Assembly: GCF_000296815.2 (NCBI RefSeq)
Contig: NZ_CAIT01000009.1
Span: 310,001 to 374,000 of the forward strand
From: Fibrisoma limi BUZ 3
GTDB lineage: Bacteria > Bacteroidota > Bacteroidia > Cytophagales > Spirosomataceae
Length of the DNA: 64,000 nt
Direction: 5' to 3'
Of the stretch, positions 6,763 to 23,621 are shown one piece after another. The translations under genes were made by a program, and so were the position numbers. Position 1 is the first letter of the stretch; the number at the start of each line of letters is the position of its first letter. The notes below the pieces were generated by a model. It ran no database searches and was not told the origin of the DNA. It worked only from the letters and a program-made list of their open reading frames with translations.

Positions 6763-7269
6763 CTACTTCCGGCTTTTGTAATACCGAATCATTTCCGGAT
6801 AGCCCATGCCCATCGAGAGTCCCGTTACGGCCTGGGTTATCCGTTTGGTTTTGGTCTCCACCGTTTTGGCGTCTTCGATCCACTTGCTGAAATAGGTCTG
6901 GTGTCCTTTCGACAGGCCGTTGAAAAACGAAAGGGCGGCCGGTTCATCGTCCAGGCACGCCATCAGATCGGCCGACAGTTCAATGGGGGAATCATCCACG
7001 GCCAGTTCGACCCGTACCGACGCGCCTTCTTCCTTGCGAATACCCCGACGCATGACAGCGTTGACCGGCATGATAAACTGCCCGTCGCCCATCGGGATTA
7101 GGGCAATTTGTTTGATGGCAAAATTATCCAGACAGCCCTTTACCCGAAAGGAGGTTTTCTGACCGGGCTTTAGCGTGGCCGTTATGTCAATCGGAATCTC
7201 AAGGTAGGTCCAGCCCGTCTTCTCCCCTTTCTCCTCAAATCGTTGGAGAATCGCCGTAAATGTGTGCAT
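6763..7269 (-). CDS. DUF1905 and YdeI/OmpD-associated domain protein
   Basis: A 168-residue soluble protein. Residues 1-90 match the DUF1905 beta-barrel fold (WTYLEIPIDITATL; IPMGDGQFIMPVNAVMRR). The C-terminal half (from about 105) has the helical YdeI/OmpD-associated pattern DEPAALSFFNGLSKGHQTYFSKWIEDAKTVETK, quoted here in part only as a landmark: ALSFFNGLSKGHQ. YdeI-type proteins have been linked to bacteriocin or polymyxin tolerance in enterobacteria, but the molecular activity is unknown. Its ATG overlaps the stop of the upstream outer-membrane protein gene as TGATG at 7267-7271, suggesting translational coupling. Confidence 0.8.
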   Translation of the reverse strand: MHTFTAILQRFEEKGEKTGWTYLEIPIDITATLKPGQKTSFRVKGCLDNFAIKQIALIPMGDGQFIMPVNAVMRRGIRKEEGASVRVELAVDDSPIELSADLMACLDDEPAALSFFNGLSKGHQTYFSKWIEDAKTVETKTKRITQAVTGLSMGMGYPEMIRYYKSRK

Positions 7270-9898: not shown

Positions 9899-10933
9899 TC
9901 ACGCTTCTTCTGTGTACCGCGCCAGGGTAGCGCGCAGGGAATCCGTAAGCTCCCGGACCAGACTGTCCGGCTGCAGCACTTTCAGATGCTCGCCGTAACT
10001 GCGCAGATGCATCAGCAGGTCGCGATTAGGAGCGAGTCGGAGCCGGATAATACACTCCGTATCATTATCGCAGATTATTTCCTGCGTTTGATGAATGGGC
10101 TTCGCCTTAACGTACCGCCCGAACAGGGGCGTAAACTGCAGCACAATTTCCTCGACCGGTCCGCTGCTGTCGGTAATCCCGTAGATGTGTTCAAACAGTT
10201 CGCTGACGTTGGTCAGTACGTTCGGCGGTACGTCGCAGGGATCATCCAGAATTTCCAGGTCGCTCATGCGGTCTAGTGCAAAAGTCTTTTCCCGGCCGCT
10301 GGGCGCGTCGTAGCCGATTACGTACCAGCTATCCGAAACTTCACGTAACAGAATCGGGTGCAGAATACGTAGTTTCGGGCGCTCCTCGCCGGGCGTCGAC
10401 GTTTCATGCTTGCGGTACCGGAATGCAACCTGCCGGTTCTGGTTAACCGCCCGGATCAGTGCCGGTACGTAATGCCGGTTCCCCCCCAGAATCCGCTCCT
10501 CTACGTACACCACCCGGCGCATCTGGCCCGCAGCATGGCTATCCCGTTTCACCTCCCGAATGATGTCGAGACTCTGCCGAACGCGCTCCAGGGCATTATC
10601 CAGTTCATTGGCTACCGAAGCCCCCTGGGTAGCAGCCAGCACCTCGCGGGCCTGCTCCATCGCTTCCATGTCGTCGGGGGTGAGCATCAGCTTCAGGAGC
10701 CGGAACTGCGGATTGGTGTAGTAATACCCGTTCCGCTTTTTGCAGTAGGCAATCGGCGCTTCGTGGTCTTCGCGCAGGCGTTGAATATCCTTCTCCAGCG
10801 AGGATACGGACCGGATGCCACACTTGTCCTGCAGGAGTTCAAATAGTCGCTGTTTGGAATACTGGCGCGGGTAACGGCTGATGATCTCGTCGATCAGGCG
10901 GTATCGCTGGAAAGCAGAGCGGGTGATGGGCAT
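9899..10933 (-). CDS. WYL-domain HTH transcriptional regulator
   Basis: A DNA-binding regulator of about 344 residues. The N-terminus is a winged helix (RYRLIDEIISRYPRQYSKQRLFELL, with SSLEKDIQRLRE as the recognition part; quoted as landmarks). The middle to C-terminal part is a WYL domain with the signature SWYVIGYD and the preceding YRKH / ILHPILLREV strands. A WCX-type extension follows. WYL domains bind ligands such as nucleic-acid fragments or nucleotides and often control anti-phage or DNA-damage loci (BrxR, CapW, PafBC). The frame is open to 10978, but the ATG at 10933 gives the usual MPITRSAFQRY start. It is divergent from the PARP cluster, with 159 bases between the starts, so it is the obvious candidate regulator of that cluster. 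Confidence 0.88.
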   Translation of the reverse strand: MPITRSAFQRYRLIDEIISRYPRQYSKQRLFELLQDKCGIRSVSSLEKDIQRLREDHEAPIAYCKKRNGYYYTNPQFRLLKLMLTPDDMEAMEQAREVLAATQGASVANELDNALERVRQSLDIIREVKRDSHAAGQMRRVVYVEERILGGNRHYVPALIRAVNQNRQVAFRYRKHETSTPGEERPKLRILHPILLREVSDSWYVIGYDAPSGREKTFALDRMSDLEILDDPCDVPPNVLTNVSELFEHIYGITDSSGPVEEIVLQFTPLFGRYVKAKPIHQTQEIICDNDTECIIRLRLAPNRDLLMHLRSYGEHLKVLQPDSLVRELTDSLRATLARYTEEA

Positions 10934-10963
10934 GAGATGTGATAAGGTAGGGACGCCGATTCT

Positions 10964-10991
10964 GTAGAGACGCAACATGTTGCGTCTCTAC
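10964..10991. repeat. Perfect 28-bp palindrome in the WYL/PARP intergenic region
   Basis: GTAGAGACGCAACA is followed immediately by its exact reverse complement. It lies between the divergent WYL regulator and the first gene of the PARP cluster. The sequence resembles palindromic intergenic repeats seen in many Bacteroidota and cyanobacteria, so it may be a dispersed repeat unit rather than a dedicated operator. Both readings are possible. Confidence 0.75.
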
Positions 10992-11027
10992 GGCAAACAT
11001 GCCAAAAATTTTTTCACAAAAAAAGAT

Positions 11028-11092
11028 GAACAGAAAAAGATTACGTTCTGGCGGGTAGAACTTTGTTCTGTCACTTTTAAACAACGATACAA
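11028..11092 (+). promoter_or_regulatory. Leader element copy 1 (upstream of the 163-aa protein gene)
   Basis: This stretch has GAAC, an A-rich spacer, then TTACGTTCTG, about 9 bases, AACTTTG, then AACAACGA just before the start codon. The same order of motifs occurs at 13299-13379 and 13737-13796, each immediately before an ATGAACAC start. It probably contains the promoter and a regulator binding site, since the AACTTTG part resembles a degenerate Bacteroidota -7 box. The function is inferred from conservation within the locus. Confidence 0.6.
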
Positions 11093-11584
11093 ATGAACAC
11101 GCTCTTTCGCCCTGCACGCCGGACCGCCTACGCCCAGAGCCAGGCCCAGCCGGCCATCCTGTTCCCGGCTATGACCCCGCAAACCCAGTGGGTTGGCGAA
11201 GCAGCACAACGCCCGCGTCCGGCCCGCCGACCGGCTCTGTCGGCTCAGCAATTGCTGGACGTAGAACTGGGGCTGTTTCTGGTATCTCAATTGCTGCCGA
11301 CGGCTTCGCCTGATGCGCTGCCCTCCCTGCTGAACGAGAGCAATGGCTCATTTCTGGAGCGCCGTACGTGGACACCCCGGCAACACAAATTACTCAACCG
11401 TGGGCGGGCTTTGCTGGCGCATATTCAGCAGCCAAACGTCTGGCACGCCCTGCTCGACGCCTACGCCAACACTCCGGACCGCCTGCAGGCCTACGACATC
11501 AGTACCGATCGTAGCCGGTTCAAAGAGAAGCAGGTAGGATTTTTCCGCAACCGGATTCTAATGCTCAAGCAAACGGTGGGATAA
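11093..11584 (+). CDS. Uncharacterised 163-aa protein, paralogue of the gene at 13797 (family A)
   Basis: I do not recognise a named family. The protein has a basic, Pro/Ala-rich N-terminus of about 50 residues. The helical core is clearly shared with the 151-aa protein at 13797-14252: LDVELGLFLVSQLLPT against LNVELGLYLLSELLPT, a LP.LLN segment, and WTPRQHKLLNRGRALLA against WTPRQHRALSQARVLLA, then VW..LLD.YA. There are no membrane segments or catalytic motifs. The invariant WTPRQH and ELGL cores suggest a structural or protein-binding surface. It heads the PARP cluster: the next ATG (11592) lies 7 bases after its stop. The ATG at 11093 is supported by the shared ATGAACAC start context of both paralogues. 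Confidence 0.7.
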   Translation: MNTLFRPARRTAYAQSQAQPAILFPAMTPQTQWVGEAAQRPRPARRPALSAQQLLDVELGLFLVSQLLPTASPDALPSLLNESNGSFLERRTWTPRQHKLLNRGRALLAHIQQPNVWHALLDAYANTPDRLQAYDISTDRSRFKEKQVGFFRNRILMLKQTVG

Positions 11585-11591
11585 GCTCAAC

Positions 11592-12998
11592 ATGCTATCC
11601 ACTCTCCATTTTTTCACCTGCTTAACCACACTTTATTCCATGATTTCCGGTCTGCTGCAGCGCATCACAACCAAGACAAACCCAGCAATTACCTTACAAC
11701 AAATTCAACCAGCACCAACCCCTGACAACCCTACTACAGGCTCCCACCCAGCCCTTCAGCCCAAAGCCGTACCCGCAAAGGCCTTCCGGATGGCCAAGCT
11801 TATTATGGTCACGGCCGAGAACAACAACAAGTACTATGAGATGCGCGAGAACGATAATGGTACGTTCACTGTGCAGTACGGTCGGGTGGGCGGCACGCAT
11901 AGCACGGCTACTTATCCGCTGGCACAATGGGACAAGAAGTTTCGCGAGAAAGTGGCGAAGGGGTATATAGATCAAACCCACTTGTTTGCCGAAACCCGCG
12001 TAGTAACGGACGCCAGCTCGATTGACAACCCGGCCGTACGCGGTCTGATGAGCCGGCTGCTGGAACTCGCCAACCGGTCTATCTATCAGAACTACGTCGT
12101 TACGGCTCAGGAAGTGACTCGCAAGCAGGTCGATGCGGCCCAGCGCCTGCTCGACGAACTGGCCGACATGATGGGGTCTGGCCTGAACACCGATACGTTC
12201 AACCGCACGCTGCTGGACCTGTTCAAAACCATTCCGCGCAAGATGGGCAAGGTCAGCGAACACCTCCTTACGCAGCCACCCCAGTCGGCCGACGAGCTGC
12301 AATCGCTCCGGGATCGGATGGCCGGTGAGCAGGATACGCTGGACGTCATGCGTGGGCAGGTCGAATTAACGCAGTCGACTACCCAGCCCGACCAGCCACC
12401 GGTTTCGCTCCTGGAAACGATGAACCTGACCATGGAGCCAGTGACGGACAAACGCTTACTGACGCTCATCAAGCGCATGATGGGTCCCGACGCCGACAAG
12501 TTCGATGCGGCCTTCAGCGTGTGTCAGGCCAGTACGCAGGCGGCTTTCGACAAGTACGTGAGCAAGCAGAAAAACCGCAGAACGCAGTTACTCTGGCACG
12601 GGAGCCGCAGCGAAAACTGGCTCTCGATCCTGAAAACAGGTTTAGTGCTACGTCCGGCCAATGCTGTCATTACGGGGAAGATGTTCGGCTACGGAATCTA
12701 CTTCGCCGATCAGTTCAGCAAATCGTTGAACTACACCTCTCTGCACGGGTCTGTATGGGCGAAGGGAACGCACCAGGAAGGCTATCTGGCTATTTATGAG
12801 GTACATGTGGGTGAGCAACTGGTCGTTAACCAACACGAACACTGGCATATGCAACTGGATGCCGACCGATTGCAACAGATTGATTCCAGGTACGATTCGG
12901 TCTACGCCCAACGGGGTGTGAGTCTGCTGAAAAACGAATTCATTGTGTATAACCAGGCGCAGTGTACGATCCGGTACATGGTCCGAATCAAGGTGTAA
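11592..12998 (+). CDS. WGR-domain poly(ADP-ribose) polymerase-like protein
   Basis: An ADP-ribosyltransferase resembling eukaryotic PARPs. The frame opens at 11592, but the recognisable protein begins with the Met at 11790 (MAKLIMVTAENNNKYYEM); the 66 residues before it are a Pro/Thr/Gln-rich extension that may or may not be translated. Counting from 11790: WGR domain about 1-85 (VQYGRVGG), helical PARP regulatory domain about 90-235, catalytic domain about 240-402. The triad is complete: His270 (LLWHGSR), Tyr304 (MFGYGIYFAD) and Glu383 (LLKNEFIVYN), corresponding to H862, Y896 and E988 of human PARP1. A glutamate at the last position is what chain-forming PARPs have. WGR domains sense DNA ends, so activation by DNA damage is a reasonable inference. 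No macrodomain or glycohydrolase is encoded nearby. The next gene starts 1 base after the stop. Confidence 0.93.
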   Translation: MLSTLHFFTCLTTLYSMISGLLQRITTKTNPAITLQQIQPAPTPDNPTTGSHPALQPKAVPAKAFRMAKLIMVTAENNNKYYEMRENDNGTFTVQYGRVGGTHSTATYPLAQWDKKFREKVAKGYIDQTHLFAETRVVTDASSIDNPAVRGLMSRLLELANRSIYQNYVVTAQEVTRKQVDAAQRLLDELADMMGSGLNTDTFNRTLLDLFKTIPRKMGKVSEHLLTQPPQSADELQSLRDRMAGEQDTLDVMRGQVELTQSTTQPDQPPVSLLETMNLTMEPVTDKRLLTLIKRMMGPDADKFDAAFSVCQASTQAAFDKYVSKQKNRRTQLLWHGSRSENWLSILKTGLVLRPANAVITGKMFGYGIYFADQFSKSLNYTSLHGSVWAKGTHQEGYLAIYEVHVGEQLVVNQHEHWHMQLDADRLQQIDSRYDSVYAQRGVSLLKNEFIVYNQAQCTIRYMVRIKV

Positions 12999-12999
12999 G

Positions 13000-13248
13000 A
13001 TGAACGCGAAACAAAAGAAAGCAGGGCTACGCGCCGTACGTATGGCCGCCACAACGCTGATCCTGGCCGAAGGCTGCACCACGACCTTATGCGTTAAAAA
13101 CTTCCTTCGCAACAAGAATTACCTGGCTTATCAGGCCGACGTATCGAAGTGGCTGTACGCCGTAGCCAAACGGGAAGGCTGGGCCGTCAACGACAATGGG
13201 CGCTTCCGGGTCTACTATTTTCCAAGCCTGAAACCCCTGCCGCAGTAA
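13000..13248 (+). CDS. Uncharacterised 82-aa protein directly after the PARP gene (family B)
   Basis: A basic 82-residue protein of unknown family, about 60-65 % identical to the protein at 13458-13706. The shared core is LAATTLILAEG-TTTLCVK-FLR-NYLA, then WLYAVAK-EGWAVNDNG-FR, here LYAVAKREGWAVNDNGRFRV. The arrangement of helix, helix-turn-helix-like segment (TTTLCVKNFLRNKNYLA) and a final beta hairpin around NDNGRFRVYYF is compatible with a small winged-helix fold. That is an inference from the pattern, not a database match. The ATG at 13000 follows the PARP stop by one base, so the two are translationally coupled. An upstream in-frame start at 12943 lies inside the PARP gene and is not needed. 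Confidence 0.72.
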   Translation: MNAKQKKAGLRAVRMAATTLILAEGCTTTLCVKNFLRNKNYLAYQADVSKWLYAVAKREGWAVNDNGRFRVYYFPSLKPLPQ

Positions 13249-13298
13249 GCACCGATCCGATAAAAATCACAAATCGAAAAAATATTTTTCAATCAGGC

Positions 13299-13379
13299 GA
13301 ACAACGTAAAAAATTTACGTTCTGCAAGTGCCAACTTTGATTCACAATCGAACGCAACAAGGGCCTTCAACAAGGACTA
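13299..13379 (+). promoter_or_regulatory. Leader element copy 2 with a strong inverted repeat
   Basis: GAAC then AACGTAAA, three A residues and TTTACGTT form an 8-bp inverted repeat. This is followed by CTG, a spacer and AACTTTG, matching leader copies 1 and 3. It ends at an ATGAACAC start whose frame stops after 12 codons (13380-13418). It may drive the 82-aa gene at 13458. Confidence 0.6.
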
Positions 13380-13418
13380 ATGAACACCCCGCGAGACCCT
13401 GATTCGGTAGTGACGTGA
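13380..13418 (+). pseudogene. Truncated start of a third family A gene
   Basis: After leader copy 2 comes ATGAACAC, the same first codons as the family A genes at 11093 and 13797 (MNT). The frame then reads MNTPRDPDSVVT and stops. No further family A similarity follows before the 82-aa gene at 13458. The simplest reading is a third leader-plus-gene copy that lost most of its coding part; a short regulatory leader peptide is the alternative. Confidence 0.45.
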
Positions 13419-13457
13419 GACAACGAATTTCTGAAAACACTAAACGTAAACTGTGTC

Positions 13458-13706
13458 ATGAAAACGCAACTCAAAAAAGCTGGTCTTGACGAGGTTCGCC
13501 TGGCTGCTACCACCCTGATTCTGGCGGAAGGTTTTACGACGACGCTCTGCGTGAAGGACTTCCTCCGTAAGCGCAACTACCTGGCCCAGCGGGAGCACAT
13601 TGCCGATTGGCTGTACGCCGTCGCGAAGCAGGAGGGTTGGGCGGTCAATGACAACGGCCTGTTCCGCATCTTTCACTTTCCGCGCCTGAAGCCACAGTTG
13701 CAGTAG
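13458..13706 (+). CDS. Uncharacterised 82-aa protein, second copy (family B)
   Basis: Paralogue of 13000-13248 and exactly the same length (82 residues). Conserved landmarks are KKAGL, LAATTLILAEGFTTTLCVK, FLRKRNYLA, WLYAVAKQEGWAVNDNG and the FHFP-LKP tail. The retained length and many synonymous or conservative changes suggest that both copies are under selection. It is predicted soluble, basic and possibly winged-helix; the function is unknown. It has its own upstream leader element (13299-13379) and is followed 30 bases later by leader copy 3. Unlike the first copy it is not coupled to the PARP gene. Confidence 0.72.
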   Translation: MKTQLKKAGLDEVRLAATTLILAEGFTTTLCVKDFLRKRNYLAQREHIADWLYAVAKQEGWAVNDNGLFRIFHFPRLKPQLQ

Positions 13707-13736
13707 CAGGCACCATCAGATCACATTGAAGCAGGA

Positions 13737-13796
13737 GAACAACGTAAACGCTACGTCCTGTGGGTACAACTCTGACTTGAACAACGAACAACACTA
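13737..13796 (+). promoter_or_regulatory. Leader element copy 3 (upstream of the 151-aa protein gene)
   Basis: GAACAACGTAAA, a short spacer and TACGTCCTG form an imperfect inverted repeat (ACGTA/TACGT). Next come GGGTACAACTCTG and ACTTGAACAACGAACAACAC just before ATGAACAC. The order and spacing of motifs match leaders 1 and 2, which places a shared regulatory site upstream of each repeated gene. Confidence 0.6.
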
Positions 13797-14252
13797 ATGA
13801 ACACCGCATTAACTTCCGCCTATCCCACCGTTCGCCCGGCCCTGTCCAGCCTTCTGCGCTGGCAGGAGCCGCTGGCGACTCGCCTGCGCAACCGCCACGC
13901 GCTGCCGGGCCGCGTAGCCAACCGGATGCTCAACGTTGAGCTGGGGCTGTATCTGTTAAGCGAACTGTTGCCGACATCTCCGCAGTACACCCTCCCCGAC
14001 CTGCTCAACGGCCAGGGGGCGGCCTATCGTCAGCGCCCGCCCTGGACACCCCGTCAGCACCGGGCGCTGAGCCAGGCCCGGGTGCTGCTGGCTCCCTACC
14101 GCGACCGCGAGGTCTGGTACAAGGCGCTGGATAAATACGCAACGCTACCGGGCAACGTCCGGCTGTTCACCCGGCTGGGTGGCTGGAACCCCGAAGCGGG
14201 CGGGTACGTCCTGCGCGAACGGCTGGCCATGTTCCGGGGGGCATTGGTGTAA
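13797..14252 (+). CDS. Uncharacterised 151-aa protein, paralogue of the gene at 11093 (family A)
   Basis: The second member of family A in this locus. It shares MLNVELGLYLLSELLPTS, LPDLLNG, PPWTPRQHRALSQARVLLA and VWYKALDKYA with the 163-aa protein, while the N-terminal 45 residues and the C-terminal GGWNPEAGGYVLRERLAMF part differ. It is basic and helical, with no signal peptide, transmembrane segment or known catalytic motif. It closes the PARP cluster and has its own leader element (13737-13796). It could be a partner, regulator or substrate of the PARP, but nothing in the sequence decides this. Confidence 0.7.
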   Translation: MNTALTSAYPTVRPALSSLLRWQEPLATRLRNRHALPGRVANRMLNVELGLYLLSELLPTSPQYTLPDLLNGQGAAYRQRPPWTPRQHRALSQARVLLAPYRDREVWYKALDKYATLPGNVRLFTRLGGWNPEAGGYVLRERLAMFRGALV

Positions 14253-14337: not shown

Positions 14338-14586
14338 ATGAACTGGCAGGAATACATAGTTGCCGATGACACAGTCCTGTCTGGAAAACCGACTATTAAG
14401 GGGACGAGGTTATCCGTTGAATTTTTGTTAGAGCGACTGGCCGACGGCTGGACTGAGCAAGATTTGCTGGATAATTATCCACGTTTGACAAAAGAAGCGC
14501 TACAGGCCATGTTTGCTTTTGTTCATGCCAATGTGAAAGATAATCTACTGCTGTTTCCAGCTCACAACCTGCGCCGGGCTTCATAA
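14338..14586 (+). CDS. DUF433 family antitoxin-like protein
   Basis: An 82-residue protein with the DUF433 helix-turn-helix-like core: DDTVLSGKPTIKGTRLSVEF, then LLERLADGWTEQDLLDNYP and LTKEALQAMFAFV. DUF433 proteins are usually the antitoxin of a pair with a DUF5615 PIN-like nuclease, and here the remains of such a toxin follow at once. The TAA stop overlaps what would have been the toxin start: changing base 14585 from A to G would recreate the classic ATGA stop/start overlap. The antitoxin itself appears intact and is now an orphan. Confidence 0.82.
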   Translation: MNWQEYIVADDTVLSGKPTIKGTRLSVEFLLERLADGWTEQDLLDNYPRLTKEALQAMFAFVHANVKDNLLLFPAHNLRRAS

Positions 14587-14942
14587 AGTTTCTGGCCGAC
14601 GAAAACTTCCCGATTACTTCCTTTCGCACCTTGTAAACATTTGGCTATGATATTAAACATGTCGCGTTTGATATGCCCAGTGTTGCTGATGTGGATATTA
14701 CTGAGTTTGCGATCACTGAACAACGCGTCATCCTCACCTTTGACGGCGATTATGGAACGCTGATTTTCAAGTTTGGGTACCGGCCACCTGGCGTTGTTTA
14801 CTTTCGGCTGGTCAATATTTCTCCAGACGAACCTGCTCACATGCTGATAAATATGTTGAAAGAAGGGTATCAGATAAACAATATGCATACGGTTGTTGAG
14901 AACGACAGGATACGTCAGCGTCGGATAGCTCAAGAATCGTGA
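14583..14942 (+). pseudogene. Broken DUF5615 PIN-like toxin gene
   Basis: In the frame starting at 14583 the translation reads (I)KFLADENFPITSFRTL, stop (TAA at 14634-14636), then TFGYDIKHVAFDMPSVADVD and on to the natural end at 14942. KFLADENFP is the hallmark N-terminus of DUF5615 nucleases, with the catalytic aspartate. Two lesions are visible: the start is ATA rather than ATG, and codon 17 after the Lys is a stop. The rest of the frame, about 100 codons, is still open, including the TFDGDYG motif, so decay is recent. A downstream ATG at 14673 could only give an 89-aa piece lacking the first acidic motif. Confidence 0.8.
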
Positions 14943-17233: not shown

Positions 17234-18577
17234 GTGCATTCCATACCACTACTAGAGGAATTTAGAGTCCATCACAACAAGCTCTTACCAGAGCCACGGG
17301 TTTTGATGGCTATTATTAAATTGTACAATGACTTAGGGGGTTTAGAAGGCTCTGCTGAATCATTTACAGAATCTCAGCTACGCTCTGCTTTTCAATGGGC
17401 TGACTCTGAATTAAGTTTGGCTGATGAGCCAAGCACAAAAACTTTCTATGAACGTTATAATTCAATAATATATGAGTTGTTCGATTTTATTTTAAATCGT
17501 GACCCAAGCGACGGAACATACAGCTTATCATCGTACGCTCTTCAGCTATGCCGTCTTCTTAAAGATACATTGTTCCATGAAATCAAGTCTACACGTCTAG
17601 TAACGCTATTTAGACTTATGGATGAACAGCTAGACAATTCGGAACGATTTATAGGGTGGGCGAATGAAGAATTAGATGCAACCATTCACAGCATTAATGG
17701 GCAGATCGAACAAGCAGAAATGAACATTCGTCATGAAGTTCGACAATTACAAGGGTATTCAGGTCAAAGCAACGAAGATTATGAAGCCCATTTGCGAAAT
17801 ACAGAAAACAAACTGCGTGACTTATACAAGCAAACTCAGCAGCTTCTTGATGCATTCACTTCAACAGCAGGAATTGAATACAAACTTAAATTTCTAAAAA
17901 ACACATTCTCTGACGACGAAATTTTGCAGAAGTTAGCCGATAAATCTTTGCTATTTATTCGAGAATCTCACAAAAAATTACGCTCTCAGAGAGCATTGTT
18001 GGATAGGGCGCAACCTAGGGTTCAGGCACTATTTAAAAATCTTGATGCAGCTCGTTTCGACCGACTTTCTGGCCAATTTCTAACATACTTACTTAATCCA
18101 GATCGTAATGTTACACCTGCATCTGGTCATCCTGAACTACCACCTGATGTGCCTGCTAAATGGTTACTTAGCAGTCCGTTAAAGCTGAAATACCTCCCTA
18201 ATAGGACCTCTCGGATCTTCCCACCTGTTCGTATTCCAGCCCCCCAAGTTGCTCCAGATCCCGAAGCAGAGAAAGAATTTCTGCTACAAGCGGAAGTTCA
18301 ATTACGGCTGCAACAACGTACTGATTTTTGGCTGACAGAACTTATTCAACAAGTACAGCAAAATAAATCTGTTGCTTTTGAGCCATTTGCAACTGCAATT
18401 ATTCAGAATGAGGCTCCTGATGAAGTATATAGTATACTGGCTTTTCTATTAGGCCGAGTACTCAACGAAACTGTACCACGCCAAGGCTGGTCAGTACATA
18501 GTCATACTCAAGAGCCTCCCCTTGTCATTAACCACACATCATTTGCATTATGGCCTCTTCACTTCAGCCACCAGTAG
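17234..18577 (+). CDS. jetA: Wadjet-type JetA-like (MukF/kleisin-like) subunit
   Basis: The first gene of a four-gene AT-rich operon whose order and sizes match Wadjet: JetA 447 aa, JetB 221 aa, JetC 1138 aa, JetD 332 aa. The protein begins with winged-helix-like segments (SESFTESQLRSAFQWAD; YNSIIYELFDFIL). A long coiled-coil region follows (about 150-280; HSINGQIEQAEMNIRHEV), then a C-terminal helical part, as in kleisins that bridge SMC heads. The start is GTG at 17234, and no ATG fits better. The last 28 bases overlap jetB. The assignment rests on operon architecture and fold-like features rather than a strong motif, and the Wadjet subtype is not determined. Confidence 0.75.
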   Translation: MHSIPLLEEFRVHHNKLLPEPRVLMAIIKLYNDLGGLEGSAESFTESQLRSAFQWADSELSLADEPSTKTFYERYNSIIYELFDFILNRDPSDGTYSLSSYALQLCRLLKDTLFHEIKSTRLVTLFRLMDEQLDNSERFIGWANEELDATIHSINGQIEQAEMNIRHEVRQLQGYSGQSNEDYEAHLRNTENKLRDLYKQTQQLLDAFTSTAGIEYKLKFLKNTFSDDEILQKLADKSLLFIRESHKKLRSQRALLDRAQPRVQALFKNLDAARFDRLSGQFLTYLLNPDRNVTPASGHPELPPDVPAKWLLSSPLKLKYLPNRTSRIFPPVRIPAPQVAPDPEAEKEFLLQAEVQLRLQQRTDFWLTELIQQVQQNKSVAFEPFATAIIQNEAPDEVYSILAFLLGRVLNETVPRQGWSVHSHTQEPPLVINHTSFALWPLHFSHQ

Positions 18578-19215
18578 ACTTTCATGATTTCTTTACCAAT
18601 TCAGACACCATTGAACACTTTGCTAGATTAGACTATGAACTACGAGCAGGGGTTTATATACAAGAAATTCATCCTGAACAGCGACGTTTATTCTGGTTCT
18701 TAGAAGACCAAATTAAACCTATTGAAGAATTTTATTTGACAGTATATGGCTTGAAACTGCAACACCGACTCGACGGAACACGTCGATTTTATTTCTTACA
18801 GCCCACTGAACAAGCAGCTAACAAAATTCCTCAATTATATCGCCGAGACCTTAAACCCGATTTAATTATTGTGGGTATGCTGTTATGTCAAGTAGTATTT
18901 GTGGATTTGGAAATTCCTAGTACAATAGATGAGCTTATGCAACTATTGGTTTTGGAATACGCACCATACAGAGAAGGATTACTTAGGCACGTATCTAAAC
19001 TGAAAAATTCAAAGTATTTTGCTACAGACCTAGATGATGACAAAGTAAAAAAATGGCTTTCAGATGCAATTGATGAATTCACAAAACTTGGTTGGGTATA
19101 CAAGCCTGGTGACGGCACTTTTCAAATAATGCCTGCCTTAAACCACTTACGCGACCTATACTGGGATGATATCATGAGGATGGAAATAATATATAAGTCT
19201 GATAATTCTAACTAG
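18550..19215 (+). CDS. jetB: Wadjet-type JetB-like (MukE/KITE-like) subunit
   Basis: A 221-residue protein in the position of the KITE (MukE-like) subunit. It shows tandem winged-helix character, with segments such as QAANKIPQLYRRDLKPDLII, MQLLVLEYAPYREGLLRHV and WLSDAIDEFTKLGWVYKPGD followed by a beta wing. In Wadjet, JetB binds JetA and stabilises the SMC motor. It overlaps jetA by 28 bases and ends 4 bases before jetC. AT-rich codon use (many AAA, TTA, ATA) contrasts with the GC-rich flanking genes. Confidence 0.72.
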   Translation: MASSLQPPVDFHDFFTNSDTIEHFARLDYELRAGVYIQEIHPEQRRLFWFLEDQIKPIEEFYLTVYGLKLQHRLDGTRRFYFLQPTEQAANKIPQLYRRDLKPDLIIVGMLLCQVVFVDLEIPSTIDELMQLLVLEYAPYREGLLRHVSKLKNSKYFATDLDDDKVKKWLSDAIDEFTKLGWVYKPGDGTFQIMPALNHLRDLYWDDIMRMEIIYKSDNSN

Positions 19216-19219
19216 AACA

Positions 19220-22200
19220 ATGCGCTATCCATTCCTATACAGTATATCTACTGTCAACCTTATCTATCACGGAAATTGTGACTATAAGCTTAATCCATTC
19301 TGTACTGGTTTTGCGGGTGAAAGTGGTGTAGGTAAAAGTATTATTGCAGACTTACTTCAACTTATTTTTATAGCCAACGAAGGAATATATCAATCAGCTA
19401 CGCATGGAAAAGGAAATCGTCCATTACATAAGTTAGTGCAAAAGCGAGTATCGACTGCCACTGAAGACGGAGCTAGTCGCGGATACGTTTTTGCTAATGT
19501 TCAAACAGGGGCAACTGATTTCCTTGTCATTGGTTGCGCTATAGAAAGTGTCACGCAGCAATGTATTCCATTTGTCATTCAACAAGGTGAAGACTTCCGT
19601 GCTCAGTTGCGTTCTATTTCTCGCCCTTTAAGTCATACTGCATTTATCGACAATGGTAATATAATCGCAGTAACTGAGTTGCGTGATCACATGTATAGAA
19701 ATCAGCAAGTAGTTGCCAGAATATTTACTAAGGGGCCTTCTGACTATTACAAGATTTTGTGGGATAACGATTTAGTGCCAATAGACATTCGCAAACCAAC
19801 TATACTCAAAGACTATGCTAAAATTCTTCGTTCATTTTCACGCAGTGGAGAACTAGACAAGAATCCAGAAAATCTAGAAAGTTTTTTATTTGGAAGCGAA
19901 CGAAAAGAAAGCATTTGGAAAAAATATGAACAGTTATTAGCTAGTGTAGGACGAGACAAAAGGGATTATGAGCGAAACAGTCACCGTATTCATCGTATTG
20001 AGCGTAGAATGAGCGGATTTCGCCAACTTGATAATTTGCTAAAGGAAGTTCATTTATGGCGGAGAGATTATCAAGAAAATGAACTCTATATTGCTCAAAA
20101 AAATCGTAAAGCAGCACAGGTTGAAATAGAACGATTCCTATTACAAACCCAATCTACTCAGCTATCAACCTTTCGTCTAGGCGAAGCTCAAGCACATCGC
20201 AATTTAAATGGTGCTTGGGCAAAATTAATTAGTTACCGATCTCATCAGCGACGTTTACAGGAGCTACCAGACCTGATAGATAAGGCGAATGAGGATTTGC
20301 AGACAGCCGAAACACTCAAGAAAGCAGCAGAGGAGACTGCACGCTTTTCTAGAGAGAACTTAGTTAAAGCAAACAAAGTAGAAACTTGGTTATCCTTTGT
20401 AGGACCTGATTACAAAGATTTATATACCGCCTTAGAAACTAAACAGACAGAAGAACGCCATGCCAAACTTCGTAATGATCTTTGGGCATATCTTAATCAG
20501 CAAAAGCAAACCGATATTTTACGCTTTCTGGGCTGGGATAAGGGATTTTCAGCTTTACAAATACAGCAAGAGTGTAATGAGTGGGAACAAACAGCTATTG
20601 ATGCGCGTAGGTTAGCCTCCTATACGGACTTGGCTAATCCCAAGTCACTAACTAGTTGGGCCTTAAAAAGAAGTGATCCTCTTACTCTCGATCAGGAAAG
20701 CGTGTTAGCCCATTTTGGCCAGTTTGATAAATGGAAAAATAAAGAAGAACGTCAAGCTCGCTTTTTAGAGACTGCTGATTTACTGATCCACGATAAGATG
20801 GTAATTGAAAACGGCGTTTCAACTGCTGGTTTTTGGTTATGCTTGGCTGGGACAAAAGAGTGGATTGTACGCCTGTCACCAGAGCAAAGGCTCTTTGAAC
20901 ACCACGATAAAGAGCAGGTCCGTAAGCTTTTAGAGACGTGGAATCAAAAGAATGAAAAGCAGGCCGAAATCTTAGAAGATAAAAGTCAGAAAGCAAAAGC
21001 TTTACTAGAAGTCCTAGAGGGTTGTTCCTACTGGGAAGAAGCACTTCCTCTGCTAAATAACACCAAGACAAATAAGATAATAATACCTATTGATTTTCCC
21101 ACAAGCTCATCAGACATTGGTATTGCTGTTGATCTACACCGCAAGCGTAGTTATTTAATCGCAGAGCAGGAATCAAAAATTACTAATGAGAATCAAGCTA
21201 ACATTAACTATGGACATACTTTTGAAACGCAATTAACATTAAGAAGTGAACAAGGCGCTTTACAGAAACAAATAGATGAAGTAGACAGAGGGCAGCTAGC
21301 CTCTGACTTGTGGAAATATCGTATACAACTACGGAGTATTCAACAGGAAGCAAATAATTGGTTGAGTGAAAATTCTGCTAACATACCTATAGAACTTATT
21401 AGAAAACATCATGCAGAAACTGGCGCAGTTGACAGCCTATCGAATGATGAGTTAACCAAACAGCTAATTCAAGCAGAAATTAACCTCGAAAATGGGCAAA
21501 AACAATTAATTGAAACTGAAAATAAGCTTGCTGAATTGCAGCGAATAGAACAAGAGGTACAACTTAATTTTGAAAAACTACCACTAGTCGAAGCCGATAA
21601 GCTGGATATTATTCCGACTTATTCAGATGTTCAAGAAAAAGAAAATGATTATGAACTACTGTTTCGTGAGCTTGTAAAAGAGTTTTTAAGTAGTGATGAA
21701 ATAAGTAAGTACCGTCCGGCCGAAGACTTGCTACATTTTATGCAAGAAGTACTGCCAGATGAAGTTCGTGGTGCAATGATACGCTCGACTGATGAAGGGC
21801 AAGAGCGTTTGCAAAGTGCTTGGAATAGCATTAATGAGTCAATGCGAGAAATTGCACGCCTTAAATTGGTAGAATTAGGTCAATTAATTGGCGATGTTCG
21901 CGAAGCATACGATGATTTTGCAAAAGATATAGGAGACCTGCAAAAATATTTCCGACGAGAAAAAACAGAAATAACCGGTGGGTTCCGCCCGTATGTAGCT
22001 ATTCGTTCGGTCACAGCTTATCCGGTAGAATGGCTAGATGAATTTCAGCGTACCGCTGCTGATCCCGAAACAGTCCGTCAACTAGCCAATTTAGATTCGC
22101 TTGAGAGCATACTTTATCGTGCTTATGATCAAAAAGGTGGTACAGATCCAAAGCGCAATATACCAAAGTTACTAGACCCACTGAGTTACGTAAAGTTAGA

Positions 22201-22636
22201 ATTTGAGATGAAAAACGAGGAGGGCTATGTCAATGACGGCAGTAGTGGTCAGACATTTATGGCAGCGGCCTTACTGAACATAGCTCGTCTGTCAGTGATC
22301 GGACGTACTGGGGGACCTAATACGGCTTTGCGTGGGCTGCGATTTATGGCTATTGATGAAGTTGACAGTTTAGGAAGCAATTACCAAACTTTATTAGAAT
22401 TGGCCCACAAAGAGAACTTTCAGGTAATTTCATTATCAGTACGCCCTTTGGTTTATGAAGCAGGTTCTCAGCAACGCTTATACTTCCTTCATCTTGGCCG
22501 AAATAAAACACTACGGCAAAACCTACCGCCAGTTATGTTGAGTAAAGGGGAGCTTACTCCTGTTTCAACTGAGCGTTTTACTCCTCCAAGCAATCCAACC
22601 TTATTCGATCCACTCCCTCCTGATGTTACAGCCTAA
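19220..22636 (+). CDS. jetC: Wadjet-type JetC-like SMC ATPase
   Basis: A 1138-residue SMC/Rad50/MukB-like motor. Walker A is GESGVGKS at residues 33-40. The middle (about 230-900) is dominated by charged coiled-coil stretches, interrupted by a globular hinge-like section. The C-terminal head has a signature-like DGSSGQTFMAAALLNIA and Walker B LRFMAIDEVDS, with Asp1046-Glu1047 as the catalytic pair. In Wadjet, JetC with JetA and JetB extrudes plasmid DNA and presents it to the JetD nuclease. The length fits a JetC. The gene follows jetB by 4 bases and overlaps jetD by 14 bases. No frameshift or stop interrupts it, so the motor looks functional. Confidence 0.85.
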   Translation: MRYPFLYSISTVNLIYHGNCDYKLNPFCTGFAGESGVGKSIIADLLQLIFIANEGIYQSATHGKGNRPLHKLVQKRVSTATEDGASRGYVFANVQTGATDFLVIGCAIESVTQQCIPFVIQQGEDFRAQLRSISRPLSHTAFIDNGNIIAVTELRDHMYRNQQVVARIFTKGPSDYYKILWDNDLVPIDIRKPTILKDYAKILRSFSRSGELDKNPENLESFLFGSERKESIWKKYEQLLASVGRDKRDYERNSHRIHRIERRMSGFRQLDNLLKEVHLWRRDYQENELYIAQKNRKAAQVEIERFLLQTQSTQLSTFRLGEAQAHRNLNGAWAKLISYRSHQRRLQELPDLIDKANEDLQTAETLKKAAEETARFSRENLVKANKVETWLSFVGPDYKDLYTALETKQTEERHAKLRNDLWAYLNQQKQTDILRFLGWDKGFSALQIQQECNEWEQTAIDARRLASYTDLANPKSLTSWALKRSDPLTLDQESVLAHFGQFDKWKNKEERQARFLETADLLIHDKMVIENGVSTAGFWLCLAGTKEWIVRLSPEQRLFEHHDKEQVRKLLETWNQKNEKQAEILEDKSQKAKALLEVLEGCSYWEEALPLLNNTKTNKIIIPIDFPTSSSDIGIAVDLHRKRSYLIAEQESKITNENQANINYGHTFETQLTLRSEQGALQKQIDEVDRGQLASDLWKYRIQLRSIQQEANNWLSENSANIPIELIRKHHAETGAVDSLSNDELTKQLIQAEINLENGQKQLIETENKLAELQRIEQEVQLNFEKLPLVEADKLDIIPTYSDVQEKENDYELLFRELVKEFLSSDEISKYRPAEDLLHFMQEVLPDEVRGAMIRSTDEGQERLQSAWNSINESMREIARLKLVELGQLIGDVREAYDDFAKDIGDLQKYFRREKTEITGGFRPYVAIRSVTAYPVEWLDEFQRTAADPETVRQLANLDSLESILYRAYDQKGGTDPKRNIPKLLDPLSYVKLEFEMKNEEGYVNDGSSGQTFMAAALLNIARLSVIGRTGGPNTALRGLRFMAIDEVDSLGSNYQTLLELAHKENFQVISLSVRPLVYEAGSQQRLYFLHLGRNKTLRQNLPPVMLSKGELTPVSTERFTPPSNPTLFDPLPPDVTA

Positions 22637-23621
22637 TCCTATTCTCCTCGGTCCTGAATATACTTGGCGTTTATTAAGAGCCTTAGCTGAAATACGTTGT
22701 AAAGGACAAACACGTAGCAAGACTCTATTAGGCAATCCACCCTTTACGAATCCGGTTTACATAAGTTACAAAAATCAGCTACTGATTGCTCCGAAACACT
22801 TGCATCCCCATATCACAGTCGCTTGTCCAAATTTTAATGCATTTTACGATCGTGAAATTGCCCCTGTTTATACGGAAACTGAAAAATTTCTAGGAGACAA
22901 TGGTTTAGACTCACATCACGCCCACTTTACTCTCAAGGATGTAGTAGGCTTACAAAAAGTAGCTAATGAATGTGTGGTAATCATCAAAGATGAGTATTCA
23001 CGCGAGATCGTAGGAACCTTATATTTTGACAGTGCCAAAGCATTGAAGGAAAAAGAAGGGCTTAATTCTGCCGTTTTAAAACTGCTTGACTTAGAGCAGT
23101 ATCCGCAGTTGAGTCATTTGATACAAGAGTCAATCTGGGTTAGCGGACACCCCAAAGCTCGTTTAGTGTTACTCTGTGAGAATCAACACTATTTGCTTCA
23201 ATGGAAAAAGGCATTCGCTCAGCAAGTTGAGTTACGCCATGCTGGTGGACGTAATGTGACGAAATTAGCTCATGCACCTGATCCCGGAGCAACATTCTGT
23301 TATTTTGGAGACTGGGATTACGCTGGCCTTAGCACGTACCGGGACGTATACGCTATACATTTGCTTAACCATAACCGCCGGACACGTTTACTTACCCCGC
23401 CACAAAATGCTCCTCGGAAACAAGTAGGTATAGCAGGTCATGGTAGTCGTTGGCCCTCTGATTTATGGAAGAAACTGTCTCATCCAGAAATTCCATTAGA
23501 AGAACTTTTTAACGATGAGCAACGAAAATTGATTGATGAACTCAATCAAAATGATAAATGGATAGAGGAAGAGAGCGTTTTGTTTAATGATTTATTAGCA
23601 TATAATGGGTTATTAAACTGA
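22623..23621 (+). CDS. jetD: Wadjet-type JetD-like TOPRIM nuclease subunit
   Basis: A 332-residue protein with a TOPRIM-type metal site. Glu186 lies in LVLLCENQHYLLQW and Asp230/Asp232 in YFGDWDYAGLSTYRD, the E and DxD pattern of JetD and topoisomerase VI-like nucleases. An N-terminal winged-helix and arm region (about 1-170) precedes it. In known Wadjet systems JetD cleaves small circular DNA delivered by the JetABC motor. This protein is shorter than many JetD proteins (about 390 aa), so the N-terminal arm may be reduced. It overlaps jetC by 14 bases and closes the operon, ending 22 bases from the convergent symporter gene. Confidence 0.82.
   Translation: MLQPNPILLGPEYTWRLLRALAEIRCKGQTRSKTLLGNPPFTNPVYISYKNQLLIAPKHLHPHITVACPNFNAFYDREIAPVYTETEKFLGDNGLDSHHAHFTLKDVVGLQKVANECVVIIKDEYSREIVGTLYFDSAKALKEKEGLNSAVLKLLDLEQYPQLSHLIQESIWVSGHPKARLVLLCENQHYLLQWKKAFAQQVELRHAGGRNVTKLAHAPDPGATFCYFGDWDYAGLSTYRDVYAIHLLNHNRRTRLLTPPQNAPRKQVGIAGHGSRWPSDLWKKLSHPEIPLEELFNDEQRKLIDELNQNDKWIEEESVLFNDLLAYNGLLN

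Follow-up and report, generated by a model that had tools for sequence, protein, structure and literature searches.

The window analyzed here is a stretch of 64,000 nucleotides from Fibrisoma limi BUZ 3 (genome of 7.63 Mb; contig C6, positions 310001-374000), which contains a compact cluster of six genes between positions 9899 and 14252. A gene encoding a WYL-WCX regulator stands divergent from a PARP gene with a WGR domain and from two copies each of two small protein families, named A and B in this study. The cluster described in the original prediction was recovered in full, with the divergent WYL gene, the WGR-PARP and its His-Tyr-Glu (H-Y-E) triad, which aligns to PARP1. The following features were identified (positions in the window; E, expectation value):

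9899-10933, minus strand: WYL-WCX transcription regulator (Pfam WYL E 3.4e-13, WCX E 5.5e-12)
11024-11060, plus strand: putative operator-promoter 1, between the WYL and A1 genes (model R1 36.1 bits, E 3e-10; palindrome and TTTG at fixed spacing)
11093-11584, plus strand: A1, stand-alone pPIWI_RE_Z protein of 163 amino acids (PF18155 E 1.5e-16; PADLOC pPIWI_RE_Z E 9.3e-17)
11592-12998, plus strand: WGR-HD-ART PARP (Pfam PARP E 3.8e-29, WGR E 1.9e-5; H-Y-E triad intact)
13000-13248, plus strand: B1, predicted winged-helix protein of 82 amino acids, directly behind the PARP gene (prediction from the model of its paralogue B2)
13299-13334, plus strand: putative operator-promoter 2 (model R1 31.7 bits, E 7.5e-9; TTTG at fixed spacing)
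13458-13706, plus strand: B2, second predicted winged-helix protein, 82 amino acids (AlphaFold2 pLDDT 88; 68% identical to B1)
13740-13776, plus strand: degenerate third operator-like sequence before A2, recognized by eye (ACG-N9-CGT in place of N11)
13797-14252, plus strand: A2, stand-alone pPIWI_RE_Z protein of 151 amino acids (PF18155 E 2.1e-16; AlphaFold2 all-alpha model, pLDDT 81)

The open reading frame (ORF) of the WYL gene can be read from 10978 (9899-10978, minus strand), and alignment points to the ATG at 10933 as the probable start. Similarly, alignment with F. montanum places the probable start of the PARP at 11640 within the ORF 11592-12998. One of the relatives surveyed below, G001, belongs to the same genus as the window genome. 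Compared with F. montanum, all six genes are under purifying selection, with ratios of nonsynonymous to synonymous substitution rates (dN/dS) of 0.041-0.119 (WYL 0.049, A1 0.055, PARP 0.119, B1 0.060, B2 0.041, A2 0.116). Operator-promoter 1 would serve an A1-PARP-B1 operon and operator-promoter 2 a B2-A2 operon; both belong to the sites that built the operator model R1, whereas the degenerate third sequence gave no match with this model up to E 5. By eye, the operator, leader and first codons before A2 (13738-13815) are repeated before B2 (13297-13400), as would be expected after tandem duplication of a B-A unit and loss of the first A copy.

The distribution of the genes was surveyed in 99 relatives. 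An orthologue of the WYL protein (75-100% identity, at least 569 bits; 75-93% identity in the 15 other relatives) was found in exactly the 16 genomes that have a PF18155 match, the Pfam family of the A proteins, whereas the next WYL proteins reached at most 188 bits, with at most 33% identity where full-length and up to 37% in partial matches. Among 395 genomes drawn across the phylum, PF18155 occurred in three, all of them belonging to the same 16, and at least two A copies are present in 14 of the 16. The locus, with the WYL gene divergent from the family A genes, was present in 16 out of 17 genomes sampled from seven genera, G047 being the exception. Also, 17 named loci from Spirosoma, Larkinella and Fibrisoma share the plan (WYL and A2 in 17/17, A1 in 16/17); four of these were taken as those of G001, G017, G039 and G057, which brings the genomes with a WYL-A pair to 29.

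A palindrome, AACGTAA-N5-TTACGTT (consensus AACGTAA-AAAGA-TTACGTT), lies before the A genes in all seven genera, and the same palindrome precedes PARP and B genes that are relocated away from the WYL gene. The model R1, based on sequence only and built from 23 sites, gave matches at E<=1e-3 in 16/16 genomes with the WYL orthologue and in 0/83 others, the best match in the latter being 0.00162. As 14 of the 16 genomes supplied training sites, and as the locus sites of the remaining two (G038, G055) resemble training sites of sister genomes, the real independent test of the model is provided by sites unlinked to the locus. At E<=0.01, 16 such sites were detected in the genomes with the WYL orthologue. 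Six precede members of one family of the glyoxalase/bleomycin-resistance superfamily (VOC) in six genomes, three precede B genes (G003, G038, G053; two on the WYL contig about 8-14 kb away, one on another contig), and one precedes a PARP-B pair on another contig (G055). Two lie before DUF1801 genes, one lies 187 nucleotides before a RibD_C gene, one weak site lies before an ORF of 225 amino acids about 2 kb from the WYL gene, and the last two are considered below. These assignments rest on Pfam for the RibD_C protein and for one protein each of VOC and DUF1801; the other targets were assigned by likeness. For the VOC family, an orthologue (E<=1e-25) occurs in 11 genomes, and the operator was present in 6 of the 7 with the WYL orthologue and in 0 of the 4 without it (Fisher p ~0.015). 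Similarly, the PARP-B stretches of the four genomes that lack the WYL orthologue gave no operator site up to E 1. Thus, the claim that these genes belong together holds: chance assembly is ruled out because the WYL orthologue and A co-occur in 16/16 genomes and because the same operator is found before PARP and B genes that have been relocated. Matches weaker than this threshold of E 0.01, namely L116 and L117 inside ORFs and L118 at 200 nucleotides from a TetR-like gene, were left out of the targets. An intervening ORF in locus L038 was also dropped, as it looks like an antisense reading. At L102:3955-3987 and L106:4038-4069, the operator and promoter element are conserved in G003 and G038, which belong to one genus, with no clear target.

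The position of the palindrome is informative for its possible role. In 63 out of 68 candidate sites (at most two mismatches; the set includes training sites and model-selected sites), [ACT]TTG stands exactly 16 nucleotides from ..TTACG. The -7 element of Bacteroidota promoters is TAnnTTTG, and this element together with the fixed spacing therefore places the centre of the palindrome near the -33 element. In 63 sites chosen for this spacing and for resemblance to the core, the C and the G that lie seven bases from the centre in the half-sites do not vary, and the A located three bases ahead of TTTG is strongly conserved, unlike the first T of the -7 element. Such a geometry is that of DriD (PMC12340889). 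DriD is an activator of the DNA-damage response that is itself activated by single-stranded DNA; it binds ATACGAC-N7-GTCGTAT over the -35 element at a fixed distance from the -10 element, its target promoters have weak elements, and one target operon is divergent from its own gene. Both sites have the ACG-N11-CGT spacing. By contrast, the R-BOX1 of the WYL repressor BrxR lies downstream of its promoter (PMC9122601), and activation is therefore favoured here.

The WYL gene, already proposed as the regulator of the cluster, indeed appears to be its likely regulator, and both co-occurrence and position suggest that its product binds the operator. The nearest solved chains to this protein are WYL proteins, including PafBC and 8tp8, which is named as DriD in PMC11804915. 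Its N-terminal part would form a helix-turn-helix, for which no Pfam match was obtained in the protein. When the six positions tied to binding of single-stranded DNA in PafB were mapped by gap-free counting from the WYL tyrosine, they read R, Y, S/A, K/R, A and R in 18 WYL orthologues, and these residues are compatible with sensing of single-stranded DNA but do not prove it.

Gene co-occurrence, the operator with its fixed promoter geometry, and the unlinked genes that carry the operator were all computed here, and on this basis we consider it somewhat better than an even chance (a probability of about 0.55) that the cluster is the hub of a regulon under the divergent WYL protein, which would most likely be a DriD-like activator, probably induced by DNA damage. 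Several parts of the scheme are putative, namely binding of the operator by this WYL protein, activation rather than repression, single-stranded DNA as the signal, the activity of the PARP, and every function given to A and B. DNA damage would generate single-stranded DNA, which would be bound by the WYL domain; a WYL homodimer would dock on the palindrome, whose centre lies near the -33 region, and recruit RNA polymerase to promoters with weak elements. The output would comprise the pPIWI_RE_Z proteins as a constant core, to which many species would add the WGR-PARP, as a sensor of DNA ends, with B as its constant winged-helix partner. Some genomes would add other small genes, most often the VOC gene. 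PARP-B may then attach to broken DNA and ADP-ribosylate proteins or DNA in the vicinity.

Several observations weigh against this interpretation. First, PARP had no match in 7 of the 16 genomes with the WYL orthologue and A. The expectation that A and B would be found with a PARP nearby is thus only partly borne out, and PARP is not part of the core. Moreover, the PARP relic of G005 (L034:8463-9293) lacks both the helical domain and the triad tyrosine, and S. spitsbergense and S. luteum (L125:6778-7389, L129:6778-7389; dN/dS of the pair 0.274) keep only an altered ART piece, which again means that the core does not need PARP. In six further named loci (L123, L124, L128, L130, L132, L135), no PARP was found within the fetched stretch, the genomes not having been searched. 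Second, for two unlinked sites no target gene is evident, the operator is missing before the VOC gene of G053, and neither Fibrisoma genome has an unlinked site at E<=0.01. Also, seven weak matches (0.001-0.01) occur in six genomes that lack the WYL orthologue (G021, G025, G028, G060, G062, G091), and dyad-symmetric covariation in the operator was not significant. Finally, two basic positions of the pocket for single-stranded DNA are lost, one of which (A) is an arginine in DriD.

The small paralogues had been presented as families without a name. This no longer applies to A1 and A2, which match PF18155 pPIWI_RE_Z with 61.2 and 60.8 bits (cut-off 25) and are 38% identical over 114 alignment columns; for family B it stands, as no Pfam or NCBIfam match above cut-off was obtained. 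Family A is thus a pPIWI_RE_Z-type helical protein. The A2 model had no PDB or viral fold match at E<=0.001, and the family A profile had no match among PDB sequences. In the description of the three-gene PIWI-RE islands, the pPIWI_RE_Z domain stands N-terminal to the DinG helicase, and a role in conflicts with invading DNA was proposed for the pPIWI_RE family (PMC3702460). Among the neighbouring window proteins scanned, no helicase, PIWI-RE protein or restriction endonuclease was detected, the rest of the genome not having been searched for them. Family A as a common phage or plasmid gene was rejected, as no relative was found in the viral_contigs, plasmids and phages collections. Two further family A copies were noticed, one at L039:8525-8905 in a prophage with terminase and PRTRC-type genes, the other at L043:7760-8146 in a phage-like array where a DNA-methyltransferase-like gene and the gene of a pol-beta-thumb protein adjoin. 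Both copies lack the operator (no match of the model in either locus) and had no match in PHROGs.

The alignment of the window PARP to human PARP1 covers the helical and catalytic domains, with the helical region aligned from query residue 174, and no match to Pfam PARP_reg was found in the protein. The B2 model has a helix-helix-helix-strand-strand topology. Foldseek placed the DNA-binding proteins MecI, BlaI and TubR among its closest matches, at E 0.025 or weaker; no match reached E<=0.001. The winged helix is thus a fold predicted from the model. The family B profile matched PDB sequences only at E>=0.35. PARP relatives were detected in 13 of the 99 genomes, that is in nine of the 16 with the WYL orthologue (including the degenerate one of G005) and in four with neither WYL orthologue nor A. 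In 13/13, these four included, B is the next gene behind PARP on the same strand. B also occurs without a PARP match in G003, G009, G038 and G053, and neither was found in G017, G026 and G057. PARP-B thus has the appearance of a two-gene unit, one that is not confined to the WYL-A locus. In G064, G080 and G095, B forms the start of a longer protein of 290-301 amino acids. The second part of the G064 protein matches WGR (Pfam, E 3.3e-7); those of G080 and G095 had no Pfam WGR match, while the G080 protein is homologous to that of G064 over nearly its whole length (29% identity, E 4e-46).

As originally stated, no macrodomain or ADP-ribosyl hydrolase is nearby, a scan of ten proteins from the cluster and its neighbourhood having detected none; elsewhere in the window genome, a single Macro match and a single DraG-like match both fall on another contig, and PF10021-type PARG had no match in any of the 16 genomes with the WYL orthologue (0/16), the window genome included. 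The suggestion that the small proteins provide reversal or immunity was not upheld, A being a pPIWI_RE_Z-type helical protein and B a predicted winged helix that begins a longer protein in three genomes, with WGR in G064. In the latter genome, a DraG-like ADP-ribosylglycohydrolase is encoded 1.1 kb from PARP, with one gene between. There (L144:499-9926, a distant genome of the order), PARP and B-WGR stand beside a protein of 929 amino acids and the DraG-like hydrolase, and a possible SWIM-finger protein is also present, below cut-off.

More tentatively, and with less confidence than we give to the regulon, the cluster may represent a Bacteroidota DNA-damage response separate from SOS, in which a DriD-like WYL factor activated by single-stranded DNA would induce a break-activated PARP. 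The dedicated winged-helix partner B would perhaps serve as main acceptor of the PARP or as a cofactor of the HPF1 type, and the core effector or scaffold would be formed by the free pPIWI_RE_Z proteins.

The original prediction of an ADP-ribosylation module responsive to DNA damage or to phages left both signals open; the link to DNA damage is the best reading of our data, and phage defence appears less likely. In the latter case, a WYL repressor of the BrxR/CapW kind would silence an anti-phage module, and infection would relieve repression, so that PARP would modify host or phage targets and stop the infection. Defence islands do contain WYL regulators that repress them (PMC9122601), the pPIWI_RE_Z domain comes from a family proposed to act against invading DNA (PMC3702460), family A copies are also present in one prophage and one phage-like region, and binding over the -33 region could also repress. 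However, R-BOX1 of BrxR is downstream of the promoter (PMC9122601), whereas the palindrome is upstream of the -7 element at fixed spacing in 63/68 sites. Furthermore, the locus occurs in 16/17 genomes sampled from seven genera and is not patchy, and the other genes carrying the operator encode VOC, DUF1801 and RibD_C enzymes. PADLOC, applied to the cluster proteins with B1 left out, gave only WYL, a Cas3c-model match to the WYL protein, pPIWI_RE_Z and PprDinG, and no complete defence system. We therefore regard an anti-phage module as unlikely.

It is also improbable that the WYL regulon responds to a metabolite or to chemical stress, with PARP-B recruited incidentally. The VOC protein as the commonest unlinked target (6 genomes), along with DUF1801 and RibD_C, the YdeI/OmdA gene that often follows WYL, and the two unconserved basic positions of the pocket would agree with such a role, but PARP and B carry the operator even away from WYL, the operator geometry is that of DriD, and the WYL protein SiwR also controls small putative enzymes while responding to genotoxic stress (PMC10693628). 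Least probable is a toxin-antitoxin-like PARP-B pair in which B neutralises PARP and WYL control is secondary: B follows PARP in 13/13 genomes, four of them without WYL orthologue or A, but B occurs without a PARP match in G003, G009, G038 and G053, and the proteins of 290-301 amino acids begun by B, with WGR in G064, fit a DNA-binding partner better than an antitoxin.

Other features were noted around the cluster. A short palindromic repeat of the GAGACGCAA...TTGCGTCTC type was seen by eye at 10964-10991, and repeats of this type recur near WYL or A in several genomes (L032, L041, L047, L048). A YdeI/OmdA-type gene (6763-7269, minus strand) follows WYL on the same strand in many relatives; in the window and in F. 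montanum, a TonB-receptor gene separates the two. On the other side, a DUF433 gene and then a DUF5615 gene lie at 14338-14942 (plus strand), and by eye an in-frame stop truncates the front of the latter, so that the two read as a decayed toxin-antitoxin-like pair. Farther away, a block of four genes (17234-23621, plus strand) has a low G+C content (0.38-0.46 vs. ~0.54) and encodes proteins of 447, 221 (MksE-like, Pfam E 1e-15), 1138 and 332 amino acids (weak JetD match, E 0.013). It looks like a horizontally acquired condensin system of the MksBEF/Wadjet type. No counterpart of these condensin-like genes (17.2-23.6 kb) was found in 20 loci of relatives.

The presence of a PARP in Fibrisoma and the existence of WYL activators of DNA-damage genes are already known. 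Fibrisoma limi and Spirosoma linguale were listed as PARP carriers in 2014 in a study of PARP distribution, where the function of bacterial PARPs is called unknown (PMC4245714), and the PARPs of Cytophagales form a clade (PMC5966428). In the literature accessible to us, which leaves out most subscription journals, we found no account of WYL, free pPIWI_RE_Z and PARP-B under one operator. Our data link a bacterial PARP to a WYL regulator through the operator and to a constant partner through gene order, and the circuit can thus be tested directly. They also give a gene context to free pPIWI_RE_Z proteins away from PIWI-RE genes. If the DriD-like regulon is true, promoter geometry of the DriD type would extend to Bacteroidota, and a bacterial PARP would be under direct DNA-damage control.

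The window PARP shares WGR, the PARP catalytic domain and the H-Y-E triad with other bacterial WGR-PARPs (Herpetosiphon, C. difficile CD160, Cytophagales clade 1.1), for which the accessible parts of PMC4245714 and PMC5966428 make no mention of a constant partner B or a WYL regulon. Family A matches domain Z of the three-gene pPIWI-RE island (PIWI-RE, DinG helicase, restriction endonuclease) above cut-off, but Z is fused to the helicase in the island, whereas the Fibrisoma proteins of 151 and 163 amino acids are free and stand beside WYL. The BrxR/CapW repressors also are WYL regulators beside their targets, with an inverted-repeat operator and a 5-bp spacer; they differ by an R-BOX1 downstream of the promoter, while here the operator is fixed before the -7 element and no complete defence system was recognized in the cluster. 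SiwR and PafBC of mycobacteria are, like the protein proposed here, WYL activators of genotoxic-stress genes, and they bind single-stranded DNA, but their promoters use a -26 motif and not a palindrome over the upstream element, and PafBC is a heterodimer, unlike the homodimer proposed here. DriD, the SOS-independent WYL activator of Caulobacter crescentus, offers several parallels: a WYL-WCX regulator with a divergent target operon, among the nearest solved structures by sequence, and a palindrome of about 20 bp (ACG-N11-CGT) over the upstream promoter element at a fixed distance from the downstream one. It belongs to another phylum and promoter class, the sequence match covers only the WYL/WCX part, and its targets are didA, bapE, recJ and dnaG, whereas those of the Fibrisoma type would be A, PARP-B and VOC genes.

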